Positions 957 to 45,214 of a stretch of 64,000 bases of DNA are shown piece by piece. Origin of the DNA: Sphingomonas sp. JC676 (GTDB taxonomy: Bacteria > Pseudomonadota > Alphaproteobacteria > Sphingomonadales > Sphingomonadaceae). The DNA is taken from positions 868,001-932,000 of the forward strand of contig NZ_JACTGR010000001.1 of assembly GCF_014489075.1 (NCBI RefSeq). Reading direction: 5' to 3'. Below the pieces are notes generated by a model that ran no database searches, was not told where the DNA came from, and saw only the letters and a program-made list of their open reading frames with translations. Made by a program: the position numbers and the translations under genes. Within the stretch, counting starts at the first letter, position 1, and each line of letters starts with the position of its first letter.

Positions 957-966
957 ATTTCACCTC

Positions 967-1049
967 GTCATCCCGGCGCAAGCCGGGATCCAGAGCCATA
1001 CGCGGCGGGTCAGAGAAATCCTGGGCCCCGGCTTTCGCCGGGGTGACGG
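967..1049. repeat. Bipartite REP-like repeat (family 2), inverted pair
   Basis: Two palindromic units in opposite orientation. The left one begins GTCATCCCGGCGCAAGCC and the right one ends GGCTTTCGCCGGGGTGACGG; about 30 bases separate them. Each can fold into its own hairpin and together they form a long inverted repeat. The same design occurs at 13968-14051 and, with a different loop, at 23923-24028. It fills the gap between the M23 gene and efp and may also act as an mRNA-end structure. REP-like repeats of this kind are common in alphaproteobacteria. Confidence 0.8.
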
Positions 1050-1129: not shown

Positions 1130-1693
1130 ATGAAGATCAGTGGCGTGGACATCCGTCCCGGCAACATCATCGAATATGAAGGCGGCATCTGGCGCGCCGT
1201 CAAGATTCAGCACACCCAGCCCGGCAAGGGCGGCGCCTATATGCAGGTCGAGATGAAGAACCTCATCGACGGCCGCAAGAACAATGTCCGCTTCCGCTCG
1301 GCGGAAACGGTCGAGCGCGTGCGCCTCGACACCACCGACTTCCAGTTCCTCTTCCGCGACGGCGATGCGCTGACCTTCATGGACAAGGTCACTTATGAGC
1401 AGATCACGCTCGACGCAGGCATCCTGGGCGATGCCGCGGCCTTCCTGCAGGACGGCATGGACGTGGTGATGGAGCTTTACGACGAGCGCCCGATCAGCGT
1501 GCAGCTGCCGGACACGATCGAAGCGACGATCGTCGAGGCCGATGCGGTGGTGAAGGGCCAGACGGCGTCTTCCAGCTACAAGCCTGCGGTGCTCGACAAT
1601 GGCGTGCGCATCATGGTGCCGCCGCACATTGCGGCCGGGACCCGGATCGTGGTCGATGTCTACGAGCAGACCTACGTGAAGCGCGCGGATTGA
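1130..1693 (+). CDS. efp: Elongation factor P
   Basis: A 187-residue protein, the usual EF-P length. EF-P enters the ribosomal E site and relieves stalling at polyproline stretches. The N-terminal KOW-like domain carries the loop PGKGGAY with Lys33 at the position that is modified (by EpmA or another system) in many bacteria. The central and C-terminal OB domains follow, with the conserved end [12 protein letters not shown]. The ATG at 1130 begins [12 protein letters not shown], as in homologues. No modification enzyme is encoded in the window. Complex I, carB and the NuoC tail include proline-rich stretches that could need it, but that link is only a thought. Confidence 0.95.
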
Positions 1694-1703
1694 TCTTCTC
1701 ATT

Positions 1704-1811
1704 CCCCTCCCGCTTGCGGGAGGGGTTAGGGGTGGGCCCTCGCCCGCCTCATGATTCAACGCTCGCGGATGGCGGGCGCCCACCCCCGACCCCTCCCGCA
1801 AGCGGGAGGGG
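1704..1811. repeat. Palindromic repeat family 1, short form (copy A)
   Basis: A 108-bp element of two inverted units. Each unit has a hairpin CCCCTCCCGCTTGCGGGAGG(GG) followed by G-tracts (GGGG, GGGG, GGG) and a GGGCGCCC-like inner palindrome. About 20 unrelated bases lie in the centre. Related copies are at 37817-37864, 38247-38293 (inverted around a DUF559 gene) and 39501-39605 (inside carA). The right-hand G-rich arm ends about 12 bases before the suhB start and supplies its ribosome binding site. Confidence 0.85.
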
Positions 1812-1823
1812 AGGAGAGTAGAT

Positions 1824-2639
1824 TTGGTTGCCCATTCCGGCCTTCTCACTGTCATGGAGCGCGCTGCCCGCAAGGCGGCGCCGCGCCTGCGTCGCGACTT
1901 CAACGAGGTCCAGCACCTCCAGGTGAGCCGCAAGGGGCCCGCCGACTTCGTCTCGATGGCCGACAAGCGCGCCGAGGAGACGATCGTCGAGGAATTGCGC
2001 AAGGCGCGGCCCGACTGGAGCATCCTTGCCGAGGAAGGCGGGGAGATCAAAGGCGATCCCGACAAGCCGCGCTGGATCGTCGATCCGCTCGATGGCACGA
2101 GCAATTTCCTGCACGGCATCCCGCATTTCGCGATCTCGATCGCGGTCGAAGATCCGCACGGCAGCCAGGGCAAGCCCGAGATCACCCACGGGCTGATCTA
2201 CCAGCCGCTGACCGACGAGAGCTTCTGGGCCGAGAAGGGCCGCGGCGCGTGGCTGACCGATCAAAGGCTGCGCGTCTCGGCGCGGCGCGACCTGGCAGAC
2301 GCACTGATCGCGACCGGCATCCCGTTCCTCGGCCATGGCAATTTCGCGCAGTGGAGCCGCATTTTCGGCGCGGTGGCGCCTGAAGTGGCGGGCATCCGCC
2401 GGCTCGGCGCGGCGTCGCTCGATTTGGCATGGGTCGCAGCGGGCCGCTTCGACGGCTTCTGGGAATCGGACCTCCAGCCCTGGGACGTCGCGGCGGGCTA
2501 TATCCTGATCAAGGAAGCCGGCGGCTTCATTACCGATTTCCGCGGGCAGGACCTCGCCATGCAGCGCAACCAGTTCCTCGCGGCGAACGACGTGCTCCAC
2601 TCCAAGCTCCACAAGCTGGTCGGGAACGCGCTCAGATGA
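1824..2639 (+). CDS. suhB: Inositol-1-monophosphatase family protein (SuhB-like)
   Basis: A 271-residue Mg-dependent phosphatase of the IMPase/FBPase superfamily. Visible metal-binding motifs are AEEGGE (Glu70, Glu71), WIVDPLDGTSNF (Asp87, Asp90) and, near the C terminus, WDVAAGYILIKEAGG. It could dephosphorylate inositol phosphates; SuhB proteins also act in rRNA transcription antitermination. The start taken is TTG at 1824, because MVAHSGLLTVMERAARKA resembles alphaproteobacterial homologues and GGGAGGGGAGGAG lies just upstream; the first ATG is at 1854. That ribosome binding site is the arm of repeat copy A. The stop overlaps the next gene's ATG (ATGA). Confidence 0.88.
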   Translation: MVAHSGLLTVMERAARKAAPRLRRDFNEVQHLQVSRKGPADFVSMADKRAEETIVEELRKARPDWSILAEEGGEIKGDPDKPRWIVDPLDGTSNFLHGIPHFAISIAVEDPHGSQGKPEITHGLIYQPLTDESFWAEKGRGAWLTDQRLRVSARRDLADALIATGIPFLGHGNFAQWSRIFGAVAPEVAGIRRLGAASLDLAWVAAGRFDGFWESDLQPWDVAAGYILIKEAGGFITDFRGQDLAMQRNQFLAANDVLHSKLHKLVGNALR

Positions 2640-13967: not shown

Positions 13968-14051
13968 CCGTCACCCCGGCGAAAGCCGGGGCCCAGGGTC
14001 ACACAGGACACGGTTCGCGGCTCTGGATCCCGGCTTTCGCCGGGATGACGG
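13968..14051. repeat. Bipartite REP-like repeat (family 2) between nuoI and nuoJ
   Basis: Two inverted units of the same family as 967-1049: left CCGTCACCCCGGCGAAAGCC, right GGCTTTCGCCGGGATGACGG, with about 35 bases between them. Each arm folds on itself, and the pair can form a longer stem. It ends 10 bases before the nuoJ start codon, inside the nuo transcript, so it may affect mRNA processing or nuoJ translation. No T-run follows, so it is not an obvious terminator. Confidence 0.8.
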
Positions 14052-23922: not shown

Positions 23923-24028
23923 GTCACCCCGGCCTTGTACCGGAGTCCACCCATCCGTGAGCGAGCCGCTAGAGCCTTGAACCTCTCGCCAAGTTGCGCA
24001 GTGGACCCCGGCACAAGGCCGGGGTGAC
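23923..24028. repeat. Bipartite REP-like repeat (family 2, CCTTGT-loop subtype)
   Basis: Left unit GTCACCCCGGCCTTGTACCG, right unit CCCCGGCACAAGGCCGGGGT followed by GAC, in opposite orientation about 60 bases apart. It shares the outer GTCACCCCGG with the other family-2 repeats, but the loop reads CCTTGTRCC instead of CGAAAGC. Confidence 0.75.
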
Positions 24029-24720: not shown

Positions 24721-27012
24721 TCAGGTCCGCAGCCGCTCGATCGCCTGGGCCAGCGCCACGTAGAGCTTGCCCATGTCCGATGAGAGCAGGGTCACGCCCA
24801 GCGGCGAACCGTCGCGCAGCACCAGGATCTGGCGGAGCATCGCCTCGAAATCGTGGATGTAGCGGTTCACATTCTCGCGGAAATCATCGTCATTGTCATA
24901 GAGCCGCGCGATCTCGCGGGTTTCGCCGGGATCGAGGAGCCGCACCGCGCGGCGGGTGAAGACGCCGCGATCGCCCTTCAGATACGCCGTCCAGGCGCTG
25001 TCGCTGACTTCGGTCGAGAAGGCCTTGGTGATGTCGATCGACGACGAATTCATCGCCTCGATCAACAGCGAGACGCGGCGGGCGAAGGATTCGCTGTCGC
25101 CCTTCTCGCGTTCGTCGCGCGCTTCGTCGATCCTGGCCTCCACCTTGGCAGTGGTCTCGGCGATCAGGTGCATCTGGTGCGACAGTCGCTCGGAGGCCTG
25201 GGTCGCGGCGTTGACCGCGGCTTCGGTGGTCTCAGTCAGTTGGGCGATTTCCCGGCGCACCGAGCTATCGATCGCGCGCTTGAGCGCGGTGCCGCTCGCT
25301 TCCTCGATCGCGCGCGCCGCGGTGGGGGCGATCATCGAAAGCGTCTCGCGGGCGTGATCGGCGGCGGCGGCCGACGTCTCGCGGACGCGGACCAGCGCCT
25401 CGACCAGCTGCGGCGCGGCCGATTCGGCGAAGCGCTGGGTAGTGGCGATCGTCTCGTCGACGATGCGGCCGAGCGATTCGGCCTGGTCGCCGCCGGTCGC
25501 CAGCGTCTCGAGTAGCGAGGCCTGGGTCTTGGCGAGCGTGTCGCGTTGCTTCGAAACCACGTCGGCGATCGCTTCGATCGCTTCGTGCGTGCTTTCGGCG
25601 GCGGTGACGAGCGCGAGCAGCTCGGGCTTGGCGCCCGCGACGACCTGGCGGCTGGCGGCGATGCGCGCGTCGAGGCGGGCGAGCGCCTCGGGCAGCGTCT
25701 CGTCGATCTCGCGCGCGGAGGCGTCGAGCGCGGTGAGCAGGTCTTCCGACGTGCCGATCACGGTGCGGGCGGTACTCTCACCGGTGCGCATCGCCTCGGT
25801 CATCGCGTCCATCGACTGATGGAGCACGCTGATCGAGGAGGAGAGCGCCTGGGTGCGGTCCATGCCGGAGGCGTGGAGCACCTGCAGCTCGCGGTCGAGC
25901 CGGTCGACGCCGCCTGAAAGGCCGGCGAACAACGCGTCGCCGCGGCCCTGTTCCTCTTCGAGCCGTATCGAGACGCGCATGATCGCGTCTTCGATCATGC
26001 CCATGCGCTCGCCCAGCGCCTCGGCGCTGTCGCGGCCGGCGCGGTCGAGCGCGGCCTGGTTGGCGCCGAGCATCGCCAGGATCGCCTCGCCCTGCGTGGC
26101 GATGCTCTTGCGGGCCTCGTCCACCGCCTCGGCGGCGCGATCGAGCACGCTGTCGACCGCAGTCGACATCTCGCCGGTGACCTGTTCGAGCCGCGAGCTG
26201 GCGGTTTCGCTGGTCGCTTCCATCCGCGAGATATGCGCGGCGAGGCGCTCGGCGGCGCCGCTGGCGATCTGATCGGCCTCGCGGCCGCGTTCGCTGAGCG
26301 CAGTAAGCTGGGTGTCGAGCGAGGCGGCGCGCTGGCTGGCGAGTAGCCCGGCGGCATCGACGCGCTCGGCCATGCCGCGCATCTCGTCATGCGCCTTGGG
26401 CAGCGAGGAAAGCACGATCGAGACGCGCCGCTCGGCTTCCGAGGTCGCGTCGTTGAGCGCGCGCGTGCTCACATCGAGCGTGCGCGACTGTTCACCGACA
26501 TCCTGCGCGACGCGGCCGATCCGCTCGGCGGCGCGGTCGCCCATCGCGATCATCACCGTGGTCTGCTCGGCGAGCGCGACGCGATTCTCTTCGATCTTGC
26601 GGGCAAGCATGGCGACGGAGCGCTCAAGACTGGCGGCTTCGGCCCGCATCATGCGCGCGGTCATGCCGAAGCGACGCGCCTCGGCGGCACTGGTGCGCAG
26701 CGAGAGCAGATAGAGGATGCCGATCAGCGCGGGCGGAATGCAGAGCGCGGCGACAAGCTCGATCAGCGCTACGGGCTCGAGGCCCGCGCGAATCGAGGGA
26801 AGAGCGAGCCAGAGCATCGTGCCGAGCCAGGCAGCGGATACGAGCAAGGCGAGGGTGGGGGCCAGCCAGCCGAATCGGCGGGTGGGCACCTCTTCTTCGT
26901 CGTCTTCGAACTCCATGACAGCGACCGGCTCGGTCGTATCGACCAATACCAGTTCGTCTTCGACTGCCGCATTCGGCGCGGGCGCGGCTTCGGCCGAGTT
27001 TCCCCCAATCAT
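24721..27012 (-). CDS. Membrane-anchored long coiled-coil protein (TipN-like architecture)
   Basis: A 763-residue protein. Residues 1-45 are acidic and disordered (MEFEDDEEE); two helices follow at about 49-71 and 81-104. Residues ~110-640 are almost continuous Ala/Glu/Arg-rich coiled coil with heptad character, and the last ~120 residues look globular (TAYLKGDRGVFTRRAVRLLD, FEAMLRQILVLRDGSPLGV). This layout resembles polarity or chemoreceptor-like scaffolds such as Caulobacter TipN, but sequence identity cannot be shown here. It lies divergent from an Hpt-like gene. Function is inferred only as an envelope or polar scaffold. Confidence 0.6.
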   Translation of the reverse strand: MIGGNSAEAAPAPNAAVEDELVLVDTTEPVAVMEFEDDEEEVPTRRFGWLAPTLALLVSAAWLGTMLWLALPSIRAGLEPVALIELVAALCIPPALIGILYLLSLRTSAAEARRFGMTARMMRAEAASLERSVAMLARKIEENRVALAEQTTVMIAMGDRAAERIGRVAQDVGEQSRTLDVSTRALNDATSEAERRVSIVLSSLPKAHDEMRGMAERVDAAGLLASQRAASLDTQLTALSERGREADQIASGAAERLAAHISRMEATSETASSRLEQVTGEMSTAVDSVLDRAAEAVDEARKSIATQGEAILAMLGANQAALDRAGRDSAEALGERMGMIEDAIMRVSIRLEEEQGRGDALFAGLSGGVDRLDRELQVLHASGMDRTQALSSSISVLHQSMDAMTEAMRTGESTARTVIGTSEDLLTALDASAREIDETLPEALARLDARIAASRQVVAGAKPELLALVTAAESTHEAIEAIADVVSKQRDTLAKTQASLLETLATGGDQAESLGRIVDETIATTQRFAESAAPQLVEALVRVRETSAAAADHARETLSMIAPTAARAIEEASGTALKRAIDSSVRREIAQLTETTEAAVNAATQASERLSHQMHLIAETTAKVEARIDEARDEREKGDSESFARRVSLLIEAMNSSSIDITKAFSTEVSDSAWTAYLKGDRGVFTRRAVRLLDPGETREIARLYDNDDDFRENVNRYIHDFEAMLRQILVLRDGSPLGVTLLSSDMGKLYVALAQAIERLRT

Positions 27013-35924: not shown

Positions 35925-37811
35925 CTAATCGTCAAAATCTTCGTCGTCCGCAAGCATTAGGTTTGCAAGCCGCGCCTGGAGCTCCTGCCGCTGCCGCGAA
36001 AGCGCCACCTGACGGGCGAACGCCTCCTCCGAACCATCCCTGCTCAGCGCCTGGGTCGCCTCGGCAAGCGCCGCATCCACCACCGGCTGCGCTACCATCA
36101 CCGCGATGGCCTCGTTCAGATCCTCGCGCGCCTTCAACTCGTCAGCCCCGTTGGGCCGTGTGAACGAGAAGGGGAGCGTATCGGCTCTCAACAGGTCGCT
36201 GGCTACCTGATCAAATCCGGACTTCGCCAATATGGTGAGGACTTTGCCGCTATCAAGCTGACGATCTTCTAAAGCGACGTTGATAACCGCTTCGAACAGC
36301 TTGCCCAGTGCGCCGCTGGCGCTGCGCAGGCTCCCGAGAACCTCCATATGGCGCGCGATTTCAGCCGGGTGCCGGATCAGTCCCGCGAGCACCGCCTTGG
36401 CGAGGATCGGATCGAGTCCGCCCGCGCCGACGCCCCGCATCGTTGCGCCCGGCGGCGCCTCGGGCGGCTGCCAGACGCCGCGCGCATTGCGGCTGCCGCG
36501 CGCCGTCCGGCTACCGGCCTGCGGTTGCTGGCGCGGCTGGAATTCACGCGGGCCGCGTCCGAAATGCACGTCGATGCGCTGGCGGAACTCGGCCAGATAT
36601 TCGGACTTCACATTTGCATCGGCGATCGTGTTCGCGAGCTCGCTGAGCCGGCGCTTGAGGCCCGCGCGCTGTTCGGGGGTATTAAGCGGCTCGGCGGCGA
36701 CTTCGCTGGCCCAGAGGCGATCGACCAGCGGCTCGGGGGCCTTGAGCAGTGTCTCGAAGGCGTGCGGCCCCTTGGCGCGGACCAGATCGTCGGGATCGAG
36801 TCCGTCGGGCAAAGTGACGAAGGCGAGGCTGCGGCCGGGCTGGAGCATGGGCAAGGCGCGGTGCGCCGCCCTGAGCGCCGCCTTCTGGCCGGCCGAATCG
36901 CCGTCGAAGCAGAGCAGGGGCACCTCGGCGATGCGCCATAGCCGCTCGAGCTGGTGTTCGGTCAGCGCGGTGCCGAGCGGCGCGACGGCTTCGCCGAACC
37001 CAGCCTGGGCGAGCGCGATCACGTCCATATAGCCCTCGACCGCGATGATCCGGCCGGCCTGGCGCGCGGCGGCCTGGGCGCGATCGAGATTGTAGAGCGT
37101 GCGGCCCTTGTCGAAGAGCGGCGTCTCCGGGGAGTTGAGATATTTCGGCTCGCCGTCGCCGATGATGCGTCCGCCAAAGGCAATGGTCCGCCCGCGCGCG
37201 TCGCGGATCGGGATCATGAGACGCCCGCGGAAGCGGTCGTACGGCTCCTTTTCCTCGACCTGGATCAACAGCCCGGCCTCGACCAGCATGCGATCGCCAT
37301 AGCTCTTGAGCGCTTCCTTGAGCTTGTCGCGCGAATCGGGCGAGAAACCCAGGCCGAACGCACGTGAGGTTTCCTCGGTCACGCCGCGCTTCTTGAGCAC
37401 CGCGCGCGCCTCGGCGCCCTCGATGCCCTGCAGCCGCTCGCCGAACCACTTCGCGGCATCGGCCATCGCCTCATGCAGGCCCTTGGCGCGCTCGGCCTTT
37501 TCGGCGGCGTGGCGGTCCTGCTCGGGCATGTCGAGCCCGGCGGCCTGGGCGAGCTCCTTCACCGCATCGATGAACGGCAGCCCGCGCTGGTCGGTCATCC
37601 AGCGGATCGCGTCGCCATGCGCGCTGCAGCCGAAGCAGTGGTAAAAGCCCTTCTCGTCGTTGACGTAGAAGCTCGGCGTCTTTTCCTGGTGGAACGGGCA
37701 ACAGGCACGGAATTCCCGCCCCGCGCGCTGGAGCTTCACCGACTTGGCGATGAGGCCGGACAGCAAGGTGCGGGCGCGCAGTTCGTCGAGGAATTGCGGG
37801 GTGAGGCTCAT
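35925..37811 (-). CDS. dnaG: DNA primase
   Basis: A 628-residue primase that lays RNA primers at the replication fork. The zinc-binding domain has Cys38, His41, Cys59 and Cys62 (CPFH, CFGC); the TOPRIM part includes IIAVEGYMDVIAL and LCFDGDSAGQKAA. The C-terminal helicase-binding domain follows a disordered link. The ATG at 37811 overlaps the stop of the DUF559 gene (ATGA). The ribosome binding region GGGAGGGGGAG is the arm of a palindromic repeat. Confidence 0.96.
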   Translation of the reverse strand: MSLTPQFLDELRARTLLSGLIAKSVKLQRAGREFRACCPFHQEKTPSFYVNDEKGFYHCFGCSAHGDAIRWMTDQRGLPFIDAVKELAQAAGLDMPEQDRHAAEKAERAKGLHEAMADAAKWFGERLQGIEGAEARAVLKKRGVTEETSRAFGLGFSPDSRDKLKEALKSYGDRMLVEAGLLIQVEEKEPYDRFRGRLMIPIRDARGRTIAFGGRIIGDGEPKYLNSPETPLFDKGRTLYNLDRAQAAARQAGRIIAVEGYMDVIALAQAGFGEAVAPLGTALTEHQLERLWRIAEVPLLCFDGDSAGQKAALRAAHRALPMLQPGRSLAFVTLPDGLDPDDLVRAKGPHAFETLLKAPEPLVDRLWASEVAAEPLNTPEQRAGLKRRLSELANTIADANVKSEYLAEFRQRIDVHFGRGPREFQPRQQPQAGSRTARGSRNARGVWQPPEAPPGATMRGVGAGGLDPILAKAVLAGLIRHPAEIARHMEVLGSLRSASGALGKLFEAVINVALEDRQLDSGKVLTILAKSGFDQVASDLLRADTLPFSFTRPNGADELKAREDLNEAIAVMVAQPVVDAALAEATQALSRDGSEEAFARQVALSRQRQELQARLANLMLADDEDFDD

Positions 37812-38263
37812 TGGCTCCCCCTCCCGCGCGCGGGAGGGGGTTGGGGGGTGGGCGCCCGCTCTCCGCTCGATGAAGCGGCAATGAGAATCGCCTGGAGCAC
37901 CCCGTCCAGGTTATTCGTCAGATCGTTGTTCCAGAAACGGATGACGCGGTAGCCCTCGGCCGCGATGCGGCGAGTGCGCTCGGCATCGGCAGCGGAATCG
38001 AGGTGCTGGCTGCCGTCGAGTTCCACGATGAGTCGCGCACGGCGACAGCCAAAGTCACCGAAATAGCCGGCGACGGGAAGCTGGCGGGTGAAAGTCAGAC
38101 CTCCCAATTGCGACTTTCGCAATTTCGACCAGAGCAATTCCTCGGCTGCCGTCGGCGCACTGCGAAGTTGGCGCGCGCGCTCCGTGGGCCGGTCCAGCCG
38201 GAAGCGAGCGGGATTGGAAGGGCCTTTTCCCGCCGGATCTCCTTGAGGAGAGCGGGCGCCCAC
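37808..38263 (-). CDS. DUF559 (Vsr-like fold) endonuclease-domain protein between inverted repeats
   Basis: A 151-residue reading with a DUF559 core at about 27-128: LLWSKLRKSQLGG, GDFGCRRARLIVELDGSQH (Asp70, Glu81, Asp83) and GYRVIRFWNNDL. The fold is related to Vsr mismatch endonucleases. Both ends are repeat-derived: residues 1-6 (GTG start at 38263) come from the unit at 38247, and the last ~19 (SGERAPTPQPPPARGRGSQ) from the unit at 37817. The stop overlaps the dnaG ATG. No other good start is seen, so it may be expressed weakly or as a remnant. Role unknown; a link to mobility of the flanking repeat is an inference. Confidence 0.72.
   Translation of the reverse strand: MGARSPQGDPAGKGPSNPARFRLDRPTERARQLRSAPTAAEELLWSKLRKSQLGGLTFTRQLPVAGYFGDFGCRRARLIVELDGSQHLDSAADAERTRRIAAEGYRVIRFWNNDLTNNLDGVLQAILIAASSSGERAPTPQPPPARGRGSQ
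37817..37864 (+). repeat. Palindromic repeat family 1, left unit at DUF559 (copy B)
   Basis: Hairpin CCCCCTCCCGCG/CGCGGGAGGGGG, then TTGGGGGGTGGGCGCCCGCT and CTCC. It is the forward unit; the matching reverse unit is 38247-38293. It encodes the C-terminal end of the DUF559 protein on the other strand and ends six bases from the dnaG start codon. Confidence 0.85.
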
Positions 38264-38293
38264 CCCTCAATCCCCTCCCGCAAGCGGGAGGGG
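38247..38293 (-). repeat. Palindromic repeat family 1, right unit at DUF559 (copy C)
   Basis: Reverse orientation of copy B: GGAGAGCGGGCGCCCACCCC, then TCAAT and CCCCTCCCGCAAGCGGGAGG(GG). It encodes the start of the DUF559 reading. The whole inverted element 37817-38293 is 477 bp, against 105-108 bp for the short forms. Confidence 0.85.
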
Positions 38294-38313
38294 AAGCAAG
38301 AAGACGTCGAAGC

Positions 38314-38766: not shown

Positions 38767-38906
38767 GCGTTCTCTTTCGGTTTGCAGATAAGCGAGCGAC
38801 GATAGCCGGGCTCGCGGAAATTGAACAGGTTGACGGCGGGGGGCAGGGGGTCTAGCCGCCGCGACTTAGCGACATCGCTGCAACCTGAATGGAGCGCCAC
38901 CCCATA

Positions 38907-40181
38907 ATGGCCGAAGCCAAACCCATGCCCATGCCTCAAGGAGCCACCGGCGTATTGGTGCTCGCTTCAGGAGACGTGGTCTGGGGCCGCGGATTCGGTG
39001 CCGAGGGGCAGGCAGTGGGCGAGGTGTGCTTCCACACCGCGATGACCGGCTATCAGGAGATCATGACCGATCCGAGCTTCGCCGGTCAGATCATCAACTT
39101 CACCTTTCCGCATATCGGCAATGTCGGCGCGAATCCCGACGATTTCGAGGCTGATACGCCGCACGCGCTGGGCATGATCGTCCGCGAGGACGTGACCGAG
39201 CCGAGCAATTTCCGCAGCAACGAGCATCTCGATAGCTGGATGAAGAAGCATGCGCGGATCGGCCTGGCCGGGATCGACACCCGCGCGCTCACCCGCCGCA
39301 TCCGCACCGGCGGCGCCCCCAACGGGGTGATCGCGCATTCGCCGACCGGCGAGTTCGACATCCCTTTGCTCTTGCAGATGGCTCGCGAATGGCCGGGGCT
39401 GGAGGGCATGGACCTGGCGATCACGGTGACGGTCGAGACGCATTATGGCTGGGAAGGCGGCGTCTGGCGGCTTGGGTTTGGCTATGAGGCTTCTTCTTCT
39501 CCCCTCCCGCTTGCGGGAGGGGCAGGGGGTGGGCCCACGCTCACGGACGATACCGCTGCTGGAGAGCGGGCGTCCACCCCTAACCCCTCCCGCTTGCGGG
39601 AGGGGGATGACAGGCCCCATGTCGTCGCGATCGATTACGGCTCGAAGCGCAACATCTTCCGCAACCTGGTCCAGGCCGGCGCCAAGGTGACCGTGCTGCC
39701 GGCGACCGCGACCTTCGAACAGGTCATGTCGTTCGCGCCCGACGGCTTCTTCCTGTCGAACGGCCCGGGCGACCCCGCCGCGACGGCGGAATATGCCGTG
39801 CCGGTGATCCGCGAACTGCTCGAGACCGGCAAGCCTTTGTTCGGCATCTGCCTAGGGCACCAGCTGCTGGGCCTCGCCGTGGGCGCCGAGACCACCAAGA
39901 TGTTCCAGGGCCATCGCGGCGCCAACCACCCGGTAAAGCGGCTGAGCGACGGCGCGGTCGAGATCACCAGCATGAACCACGGCTTCGCGGTCGAGCGCGA
40001 GACTTTGCCCGCCAACGCGCGCGAGACGCATGTGTCGCTGTTCGACGGCAGCAATGCCGGGATCGAGCTGACCGACAAGCCGGCCTTCAGCGTGCAATAT
40101 CATCCCGAGGCGAGCCCCGGGCCGCAGGACAGCTTCTATTTGTTCGAGAAGTTCGTGGGCAGCCTGAAGGGGAGTCGTTGA
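38907..40181 (+). CDS. carA: Carbamoyl-phosphate synthase small subunit, with an in-frame repeat insertion
   Basis: A 424-residue glutaminase subunit that passes ammonia to CarB. The N-terminal domain has TGYQEIMTDPSFAGQI; the class I amidotransferase part has FLSNGPGDPAAT, the nucleophile in GICLGHQ, and the final YHPEASPGP. Between them, about 35 codons at 39501-39605 are a complete copy of palindromic repeat family 1, in frame with no stop, so the protein is longer than the usual ~390. The insertion lies in the linker before HVVAIDYGSK. ATG 38907 gives MAEAKPMPMPQGATG; ATG 38889 is a six-residue longer option. Confidence 0.92.
   Translation: MAEAKPMPMPQGATGVLVLASGDVVWGRGFGAEGQAVGEVCFHTAMTGYQEIMTDPSFAGQIINFTFPHIGNVGANPDDFEADTPHALGMIVREDVTEPSNFRSNEHLDSWMKKHARIGLAGIDTRALTRRIRTGGAPNGVIAHSPTGEFDIPLLLQMAREWPGLEGMDLAITVTVETHYGWEGGVWRLGFGYEASSSPLPLAGGAGGGPTLTDDTAAGERASTPNPSRLREGDDRPHVVAIDYGSKRNIFRNLVQAGAKVTVLPATATFEQVMSFAPDGFFLSNGPGDPAATAEYAVPVIRELLETGKPLFGICLGHQLLGLAVGAETTKMFQGHRGANHPVKRLSDGAVEITSMNHGFAVERETLPANARETHVSLFDGSNAGIELTDKPAFSVQYHPEASPGPQDSFYLFEKFVGSLKGSR
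39501..39605. repeat. Palindromic repeat family 1 inside carA (copy D)
   Basis: A 105-bp short form: left unit CCCCTCCCGCTTGCGGGAGG(GG)CAGGGGGTGGGC, a short centre, and right unit GGAGAGCGGGCGTCCACCCC-TAA-CCCCTCCCGCTTGCGGGAGG(GG). Its length is a multiple of three; in the carA frame it reads SPLPLAGGAGGGPTLTDD and onward without a stop. Confidence 0.9.
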
Positions 40182-43600: not shown

Positions 43601-44020
43601 GTGCTGCCGGCCTCCGGCACGTTGTTCGTCAGCGTCAAGGACAGCGACAAGCCCGTGGTGTTGCCCGGCGTGCGCATCTTGGCCGGTCTCGGCTTCAGCA
43701 TCATCGCCACCGGAGGTACCGCGGATTATCTGATCGCCGAGGGGATCGCGGTCGAGCGGGTCAACAAGGTGGCGCAGGGGCGGCCGCACATCGTCGACCG
43801 GATTCAGGACGGCGCGGTCGACATCATCTTCAACTCGACCGAAGGCTGGCAGTCGCTCAAGGACTCCTCAAGCATCCGCGCCTCGGCATTGTCGCAGAAG
43901 ATACCGTATTTCACGACCGCGCCTGCGAGCGTGGCTGCGGCACGGGCCATCGAAGCGCTTTCCCGCCAGACGCTTGATGTTTGCCCTTTGCAGTCTTACT
44001 ATTCGCATTCGCACAATTGA
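40685..44020 (+). CDS. carB: Carbamoyl-phosphate synthase large subunit
   Basis: A 1111-residue synthase making carbamoyl phosphate for arginine and pyrimidines. Two homologous ATP-grasp halves are seen: [20 protein letters not shown] and [16 protein letters not shown] in the first, [20 protein letters not shown] and [15 protein letters not shown] in the second. The C-terminal MGS-like allosteric domain includes [12 protein letters not shown] 40685 overlaps the preceding hypothetical gene (TAATG). Full length, about 30-40 residues longer than E. coli. Confidence 0.97.
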
Positions 44021-44045
44021 TCTCCCCAACCGGTGTTAGTGTGCG

Positions 44046-44067
44046 AGCGTCTCGATTGTGAGACGCT
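44046..44067 (+). terminator. Hairpin after carB (possible terminator or leader structure of greA)
   Basis: AGCGTCTC and GAGACGCT form an eight-base stem around GATTGT. No T-run follows directly; TTTTAAGGA comes later and holds the greA ribosome binding site. It may be a weak terminator or a leader hairpin. Confidence 0.35.
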
Positions 44068-44097
44068 TGGGGCCCGGGGCGTTTTAAGGACGAGTGT

Positions 44098-44574
44098 ATG
44101 GCGACGGTCGAAAAGATGCCGATGCTGGCTGAGGGCTATGACAAGCTCAATGCGGAGCTGAAGCGCCTGAAAATCGAGCGGCCGCAGATTGTGGACGCAA
44201 TCGAGGAAGCGCGCGCGCACGGCGATTTGTCGGAAAACGCCGAATATCACGCCGCCAAGGAGCGCCAGGGCCAGATTGAGGCGAGCATCGCCGATATCGA
44301 GGACAAGCTCAGCCGCGCGCAGATCATCGATCCGCGCGACCTGTCGGGCGACAAGGTGGTGTTCGGCGCGACCGTGACCCTGCGCGACGAGGACGAGAAG
44401 GCGATCAAGTATCAGATCGTCGGCCAGACCGAGGCGGATGCCAATAAGGGCCGCATCTCGTACAACTCGCCGCTCGGCCGCGCGCTGATTGGTCGCAAGG
44501 TCGACGAGGAAGTCGAAGTGTCGGTGCCGGCGGGCGACCGATACTATCTGGTGTCGCGCATCGAATTCATCTGA
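44098..44574 (+). CDS. greA: Transcription elongation factor GreA
   Basis: A 158-residue factor that rescues backtracked RNA polymerase by promoting RNA cleavage. The N-terminal coiled coil carries the acidic tip [18 protein letters not shown], with Asp and Glu at the expected places; the C-terminal FKBP-like domain ends [19 protein letters not shown] precedes the ATG. The rhomboid gene follows within four bases. Confidence 0.96.
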
Positions 44575-44578
44575 GACC

Positions 44579-45214
44579 ATGTCGATGGACCGCCTGACGG
44601 CGACCACGGCGATCGTGCTGCTCACCATCGCGGTGAGCGCGCTGGTGACGCTGTCTCCCTATGCCACGGATATCCAGGTGCTGGCCGGGTTCATCCCCGC
44701 GCGGCTGAGCGGTGCCGTGGTATTTCCCGGGCTGACCGCGGTTCCGGCCTGGCTGACGCCGCTCAGCTGTGCGCTGATCCATGCCGGCTTCTTCCACCTC
44801 GGCATGAACATGCTCATGCTCGGCTTTACCGGCAGCGCCACCGAGCGCGCGCTGGGGCCGGTTGGCATCATCGTCCTCTATCTGGTCGGCGCCTATGCCG
44901 CCGCGTTCGCGCAATGGGCGGCGGGCCCGCTTTCGGTCACCCCGATGGTGGGTGCCAGTGGCGCGGCTTCGGCGGTGGTCGGCGCCTATTCGCTGCTCTA
45001 CGGCCAGCCCAAGGCCAAGGCGATTGGACCGATCCCCGCGCGGGCGATCCACATCCTGTGGCTCGCCGTTGCCTGGACGCTCGTCAACCTGCTGATGGCG
45101 ACTGCGTTTTTGCAGGGCGGCGTGGCGATCGCCGCCGCGGCGCATATCGGCGGTTTCTTCGCGGGCCTCGCGCTGGCGGGCCCGCTGTTCCGGTGGCGTT
45201 GGCGGAAAGCCTGA
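44579..45214 (+). CDS. Rhomboid-family intramembrane serine protease
   Basis: A 211-residue protein with about six helices. The rhomboid catalytic elements are all present: HLGMN (His73, Asn77), VGASGA with Ser127, and AHIGGFFAG with His189. It should cut membrane-embedded substrates. It begins four bases after greA, so the two are likely co-transcribed without an obvious functional link. Confidence 0.9.
   Translation: MSMDRLTATTAIVLLTIAVSALVTLSPYATDIQVLAGFIPARLSGAVVFPGLTAVPAWLTPLSCALIHAGFFHLGMNMLMLGFTGSATERALGPVGIIVLYLVGAYAAAFAQWAAGPLSVTPMVGASGAASAVVGAYSLLYGQPKAKAIGPIPARAIHILWLAVAWTLVNLLMATAFLQGGVAIAAAAHIGGFFAGLALAGPLFRWRWRKA

Follow-up and report, generated by a model that had tools for sequence, protein, structure and literature searches.

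Triplex repeats of the BoxC type have been on record since the 1990s, according to the accessible text of PMC4666352. That text relates that the E. coli form, TM_ECO, adopts a triplex in solution, as shown by CD and NMR, that a stable triplex was not seen by in vivo footprinting in E. coli, and that the surroundings of the E. coli repeats showed no remnants of a transposase or integrase. It also sets out what constitutes an intrastrand triplex motif (ITxF): three stems of 6-15 nt in the order Y, R and third, separated by loops of 1-6 nt, with G.G-C and A/T.A-T triads and at most one mismatch. Repeats of this type have so far had no accepted function, spreading route or known partner. In the comparison described below, the same small nuclease gene is flanked by triplex repeats in distantly related bacteria, pointing to a possible mobile element behind the repeat family.

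Layout and copies of the units

The window (the whole 64 kb stretch of Sphingomonas sp. JC676 DNA that was analysed) contains, at positions 1704-1811, two inverted units in which the sequence, read directly, gives a hairpin and then further G-tracts. This dimer lies between two tandem genes, just past a stop codon and ahead of a start codon:

1130..1693, plus strand: gene upstream of the dimer (open reading frame and translation)
1704..1736, plus strand: unit A, CCCCTCCCGC-TT-GCGGGAGGGG-TTA-GGGGTGGG (sequence and unit finder)
1704-1711, 1712-1717 and 1718-1725: Y arm, apical GCTTGC and R arm GGGAGGGG of unit A
1726-1728 and 1729-1736: loop TTA and third strand GGGGTGGG of unit A
1777..1811, minus strand: unit B, inverted copy with loop TCG; its third strand GGGGTGGG corresponds to plus-strand 1779-1786 and faces unit A
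1824..2639, plus strand: gene downstream of the dimer (open reading frame); residues from 1854 on served as query for related loci

The upstream gene probably encodes elongation factor P, and the downstream gene is probably inositol monophosphatase-like; the nearest named record for the latter is Sphingomonas sp. dw_22, at 98% identity. No Rfam family reached its gathering threshold anywhere in the 64 kb window. The units being inverted, their G-runs occupy opposite strands (A on plus, B on minus), just as the original prediction had it. The R arm GGGAGGGG and the third strand GGGGTGGG are mirror images, with T placed over A, and both units are class II intrastrand triplex motifs by the ITxF definitions. 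For each unit, a class II intrastrand DNA triplex layout of the BoxC/TM_ECO kind is thus well supported at the level of sequence.

The unit finder returned six units in the window, starting at 1704, 1777, 37817, 38257, 39501 and 39573, which fits the further copies and the linkers (TT, ATTGA, CA) listed at the outset. When the genome (4.87 Mb, 34 contigs) was searched, 28 hairpins of the form CCCTCCC-N2-16-GGGAGGG were found and none of the reversed pattern, indicating that CCCTCCC/GGGAGGG hairpins occur above chance. Further G-tracts follow 25 of the 28 hairpins and are absent after 3; genome-wide, the claim that every unit joins a hairpin to a four-tract G-run thus holds for 25 of the 28. 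The BoxC search pattern gave 12 hairpins in the same genome, one of them common to the 28. The published TM_ECO/BoxC consensus, CCCTCNCCCN3-6GGGNGAGGGN3GGGNGAGGG, does not describe the window units, whose arm is CCCCTCCC/GGGAGGGG. In the units of this genome the G positions of the third strand are altered in 6 of 175 cells, whereas the 3-nt loops (n=17) depart from their commonest base in 20 of 51. This supports the view that the G-tracts are kept more strictly than the linkers and are, on that ground, important. A third-strand seed with two mismatches yielded mostly noise (106 matches against 86 for the reversed control) and served only to spot variants. A second repeat family, of CCCGGC...GCCGGG palindromes in inverted pairs, occupies window positions 966-1049, 13968-14051 and 23923-24028.

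One dimer of the window lies inside a gene:

38889..40181, plus strand: carA frame (open reading frame, Pfam and alignment), open through the dimer
39501..39533, plus strand: unit E, the first half of the dimer within carA
39573..39605, minus strand: unit F, second unit of the dimer within carA

Relative to S. parapaucimobilis CarA, with which it was aligned, the in-frame dimer (39501-39605) adds about 35 residues to the protein. Rickettsia palindromic elements are palindromic repeats placed in frame within protein genes; the likeness, which concerns one case here and is drawn by description only, lies in the in-frame palindromic insertion.

DUF559 genes between and beside the units

In stretches of the JC676 genome taken around hairpins of the set of 28, the third strands faced inward in 13 of 13 unit pairs. 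Eleven of these pairs are narrow and two wide, and a DUF559 gene lies inside both wide ones. The first is in the window:

37817..37854, plus strand: unit C, bounding the DUF559 cassette at one end
37808..38263, minus strand: DUF559 open reading frame, 151 residues, with ends running into units C and D
38257..38294, minus strand: unit D, the other end of the cassette, inverted relative to C

The second, on contig 1, has its inverted units about 430 bases apart. In the window protein the DUF559 domain spans residues 27-128, between units C and D (Pfam PF04480, E 3.1e-34; 117.6 bits against a curated cut-off of 20.6), and the protein is related to PDB 3hrl (E 5.9e-17). AlphaFold, given the single sequence, returned a poor model (mean pLDDT 53). 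Residues E42, D71, E82, D84, H88 and D94, presumably catalytic, are invariant in all 31 DUF559 domains compared. The sequence CGCCCGC follows the third strand in 4 of 11 other GC-apical units, as it does at both ends of the window cassette, which is what one would expect were narrow dimers shortened forms. The window segment 35925-40181 and a Sphingomonas parapaucimobilis locus (L174) both have a DUF559 gene between yqeY-like and dnaG genes, with differing arrangements of flanking units.

Reading among the matches listed in the family and phylum searches identified ten pairs or arrays with units 250-800 bases apart. A DUF559 frame was present in eight of the ten (L133-L137, L181, L183, L185), comprising all eight spaced 367-542 bases, and was not found in those at 270 (L182) and 718 bases (L184); in L185 the third strands are degenerate. 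Nor was DUF559 present in two close pairs (L138, L139), at a single unit (L141) or at spacings of 900-1460 bases (L186-L188). E. coli K-12 also has a DUF559 gene, ycjD, and one of its BoxC units (number 9 in the published table) is found about 170 bases away from it.

The association was also approached from the side of the gene. DUF559 homologues matched in 44 plasmid records, of which 24 were examined, chosen for genus spread, and 20 left out. A unit was found within 800 bases of the DUF559 gene in 17 of the 24, and on both sides in 9, at loci that include Sphingomonas, Azospirillum, Sinorhizobium, Deinococcus, Synechocystis and E. coli; the other 7 had no unit within that distance. Two of the 17 positive loci (L155 and L173) depend on imperfect units, and in another with units on both sides (L180) the DUF559 match falls inside a very long annotated gene. 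By comparison, random places drawn in six control stretches had a unit within 800 bases in 0, 0, 2.8, 4.3, 4.8 and 11% of draws, and units on both sides in at most 1.6%; one of these stretches holds a DUF559 gene yet no unit at all. On viral contigs, 8 of 9 DUF559 matches were without units and one had them. Where DUF559 cassettes occur elsewhere, the nearest units are usually inverted and sometimes outward facing, as in Deinococcus. Comparison thus places DUF559 genes between or beside units in several phyla, and the association of units with DUF559 genes, as judged from these loci, is strong.

Some individual loci deserve mention. In Photobacterium (L178), long arrays of alternating triplex units occupy positions 25412-26996 and 43783-44979, one of them adjoining a DUF559 gene. 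In S. parapaucimobilis, DUF559 genes lie between sufB and sufC (L163) and between transhydrogenase subunit genes (L168), as if inserted into operons; no unit was found at L168 by the search used. In Pseudanabaena (L167), inverted repeats of 45 bases lie on either side of the DUF559 gene; they contain CCCCCTAAATCCCCCAATTCTGGGGGACTT and resemble a triplex of a different type with shorter arms. In the literature searched on DUF559 and ycjD, which included few subscription journals, nothing was found joining DUF559 to BoxC or triplex repeats, and the letters of the repeat themselves had no match there. A Caulobacter DUF559 protein is described in the available text of PMC12907096 as responsible for an SOS response in methyltransferase-lacking cells, which suggests that DUF559-type proteins can act on DNA in cells.

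On balance, we lean towards reading these arrangements as triplex-ended mobile elements, whose autonomous form would carry DUF559 and whose narrow dimers would be non-autonomous. When single-stranded, the G-rich strand would fold its C-arm onto its G-arm as a hairpin, and the following G-run would lie antiparallel in the major groove of that hairpin, making a class II (purine-motif) intrastrand triplex. Units would act mostly in inverted pairs that form the two ends of a small mobile element. In its autonomous form, the gene for the DUF559 (EDxHD/Vsr-like) nuclease would lie between both units, and the common narrow dimers such as 1704-1811 would be derivatives devoid of the gene. The triplex, exposed on a single strand during replication or transcription, would be the structure recognised. 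DUF559 might then cut at or near the triplex, or at an empty site, with repair copying or replacing the element; it is in this sense that we infer mobilisation of the elements by DUF559, along with folding in the cell and the copying route. No precise empty site or target duplication has been defined for the element.

The main rival reverses the order of events: triplex dimers would be the older component, and a DUF559 gene of the homing type would land between existing units without moving them. A DUF559-containing gene has indeed been placed in the EDxHD homing endonuclease family, in the part of PMC9403480 available, and EDxHD/Vsr nucleases are described as homing enzymes of phage introns in the accessible text of PMC12350094; the excess of narrow dimers over wide pairs in the fetched stretches (11 against 2) would also suit homing. 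Against it, arm types ("none" being treated as a type too) cluster weakly on a DUF559 tree of 31 rows, itself weakly supported, requiring 15 changes where shuffled labels average 19.7 and none of 200 shuffles was as low. This clustering suggests that nuclease and ends travel together, and homing into pre-existing dimers seems to us an unlikely account, if one to be taken seriously.

Turnover of units at one orthologous site

Relatives of the gene downstream of the 1704-1811 dimer made it possible to follow a single site through evolution. Among the best 80 of 504 relatives, at least one unit was found within 260 bases before the gene in 32 loci, with both orientations present in 16, against 0 of 400 shuffled stretches. 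When the states were assigned by eye in 81 rows (window included, degenerate units counted), 22 had the 8-nt arm, 14 the BoxC arm and 31 no unit, and in 14 another gene lay in between. On the gene tree these states require 30 changes, against a shuffled mean of 41.9, with at least nine switches between the two arm types. Close relatives can differ in type, as do L079 and L085 from L082 and L084 within one well supported group of four. The nearest relative (L033) also has an inverted dimer here, with apical loops and between-unit sequence that differ from those of the window. The arm type found at the locus shows a modest link to the genome-wide arm counts (Mann-Whitney p 0.008, 12 versus 13 genomes). 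Turnover of units at one orthologous site is thus shown by sequence comparison.

Two further features of these dimers were apparent. Paired units, both in the JC676 dimers and in the 16 two-sided loci, often combine an A-ending loop (TTA, CTA) with a G-ending one (TCG, TTG). The same mixture is reported for E. coli. No pair among the 16 has both loops ending in A; in the DUF559 cassette L135, both loops are TAA. At six loci (L053, L060, L062, L066, L069 and L076), a small hairpin (CCCATCGC...GCGATGGG) is set into the loop that joins purine arm to third strand in the second unit.

The position of the dimer, with a stop codon directly ahead of it and a start codon following, together with the presence of another hairpin-like sequence at that place in several relatives, might be taken to mean that the units are cis elements useful to the host (mRNA 3' ends, terminators or replication pause sites) maintained by selection, their link with DUF559 being a by-product of both occupying intergenic gaps. 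This explanation appears improbable in view of the 31 rows that lack a unit here, some with few bases between the genes, the differences in type among close relatives, the location of one dimer inside carA and the rarity of units at random places. Moreover, the accessible text of PMC4666352 mentions that, for the E. coli relative, earlier work had detected neither promoter nor terminator activity.

Three-strand covariation and comparison with described systems

The original prediction had interpreted the G-runs as intramolecular quadruplexes, that is, as four G-tracts folding on themselves into the structure under selection. The units do have four tracts of three or more Gs joined by short linkers, and the G positions are well conserved. 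What a quadruplex leaves unaccounted for is the behaviour of the remaining bases, since it has no need of the C-rich arm and is indifferent to the base between tracts 3 and 4. The family search gave matches in 50 of 59 genomes, and 149 of the matches listed, from 7 genomes, were typed. Third strands were present in 55 of these rows, in which the separator over arm A is T in 36, A in 19 and C in none (G being excluded by the search pattern); in JC676 itself the counts are T 18, A 6, G 1 and C 0. A third strand accompanies none of the 13 listed rows with a non-A arm centre, as opposed to 55 of 136 with A (Fisher p 0.0018, in rows that are not independent because both orientations of the palindrome were counted).

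A phylum-level search leaving two arm positions free found matches in 112 of 398 genomes and 66 of 212 genera. Among the matches listed in such searches, 178 rows from 16 genera were typed; they come from related genomes, and their sequence changes are therefore not independent. R arm and third strand matched fully in 148 of the 178, compared with a mean of 80.6 and a maximum of 97 in 2000 shuffles. With each combination of genus, arm and third strand counted once, 30 of 53 matched (shuffle mean 12.8, maximum 22), and shuffling within genus gave a mean of 19.4 and a maximum of 29 in 2000 shuffles against the same observed 30. Thus, arm GGGAGAGGG is paired with third strand GGGTGAGGG in 104 of 113 typed rows, arm GGGGGAGGG with GGGTGGGGG or GGGAGGGGG in 25 of 40, and arm GGGGAAGGG with GGGATGGGG or GGGTTGGGG in 15 of 22: when the A of the arm shifts, the third strand shifts in step. 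The correspondence extends outside the G-tracts, where the next base covaries (A with T, G with G, C with C) in 57 of 63 units from JC676 and the family, against a mean of 29.9 and a maximum of 44 in 5000 within-genome shuffles. In 23 published E. coli copies, C-G goes with G in 15 of 15 cases, T-A with T in 4 of 5, and unpaired T-T with C in 3 of 3. C matched with C does not make one of the standard triads, and inheritance within subfamilies could lie behind it instead. The accessible text of PMC4666352 contains no word beginning covar, co-var or compensat.

Linker identity and position depend, then, on the hairpin arm. Such covariation counts against a quadruplex, under which bases outside the G-tracts should vary independently of the arm. 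The separator base (T or A, a single G in JC676, no C) and the mirror-fashion tracking of the arm's A point the same way. Holder et al. 2015 (PMC4666352), in the text available, weighed the G4 alternative for the related repeat of E. coli and then excluded it by NMR. The quadruplex reading is accordingly disfavoured, and we regard it as very improbable as the selected structure; a competing G4 on isolated single strands of the Sphingomonas unit is possible. The evolutionary evidence argues that what has been preserved is the triplex layout, rather than a quadruplex or a hairpin on its own. Hardest of all to credit are plain hairpin repeats of the REP/BIME type moved by a RAYT (Y1 HUH) transposase, which would account for the REPIN-like look of inverted dimers scattered through the genome, but not for the third strand, which a hairpin alone leaves unexplained, nor for the distribution of PF01797 (Y1_Tnp), with 0 matches in JC676, presence in only 12 of 59 family genomes (absent from 47) and 4 of 37 genomes reached via related loci (absent from 33), and none in a metagenome-assembled genome with 294 hairpins (G453).

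Returning to triplex-ended mobile elements, we tentatively put forward, with rather less assurance than a coin toss would give, a more general view: an undescribed class of bacterial mobile elements may exist that has intrastrand-triplex ends and a triplex-recognising DUF559 nuclease, with BoxC and many GC-rich triplex repeats of Proteobacteria, Deinococcus and Cyanobacteria as its non-autonomous copies and with selection on folding visible as covariation. If this is true, DUF559, annotated as unknown, would supply the nuclease for mobile elements of a widespread family, and recognised transposon ends would come to include a non-B DNA structure. The comparison names DUF559 as a candidate enzyme, and one that is directly testable.

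Of the described systems, BoxC/PIT/TM_ECO of E. coli, as presented in the accessible text of PMC4666352, has in common with the Sphingomonas units the Y arm, R arm, third strand and class II layout, the 3-nt loop types (TTA or CCG/TCG), and the inverted pairs that mix A-type and B-type loops and are mostly intergenic. It differs in that the Sphingomonas arm, of 8 nt (GGGAGGGG with GGGGTGGG), falls outside the published consensus; relative to what that text covers, the present work adds a DUF559 gene between or beside the units and the three-strand covariation. The REP/REPIN system with RAYT (REPtron), to judge from the available text of PMC8266576, is alike in its small palindromes forming inverted pairs and in its organization, a single-gene cassette between two copies and many gene-less copies. 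Here, however, a Vsr-like DUF559 nuclease takes the place of the HUH transposase, RAYT being absent from the genome, and a triplex layout takes that of the tagged hairpin; no GTAG or CGTC tag was seen by eye beside units A and B, the two units inspected. Finally, the accessible part of PMC9403480 counts a DUF559-containing gene among the EDxHD/Vsr-like homing endonuclease genes; the cited examples reside in inteins or phage introns, whereas the present gene stands alone between triplex repeats.
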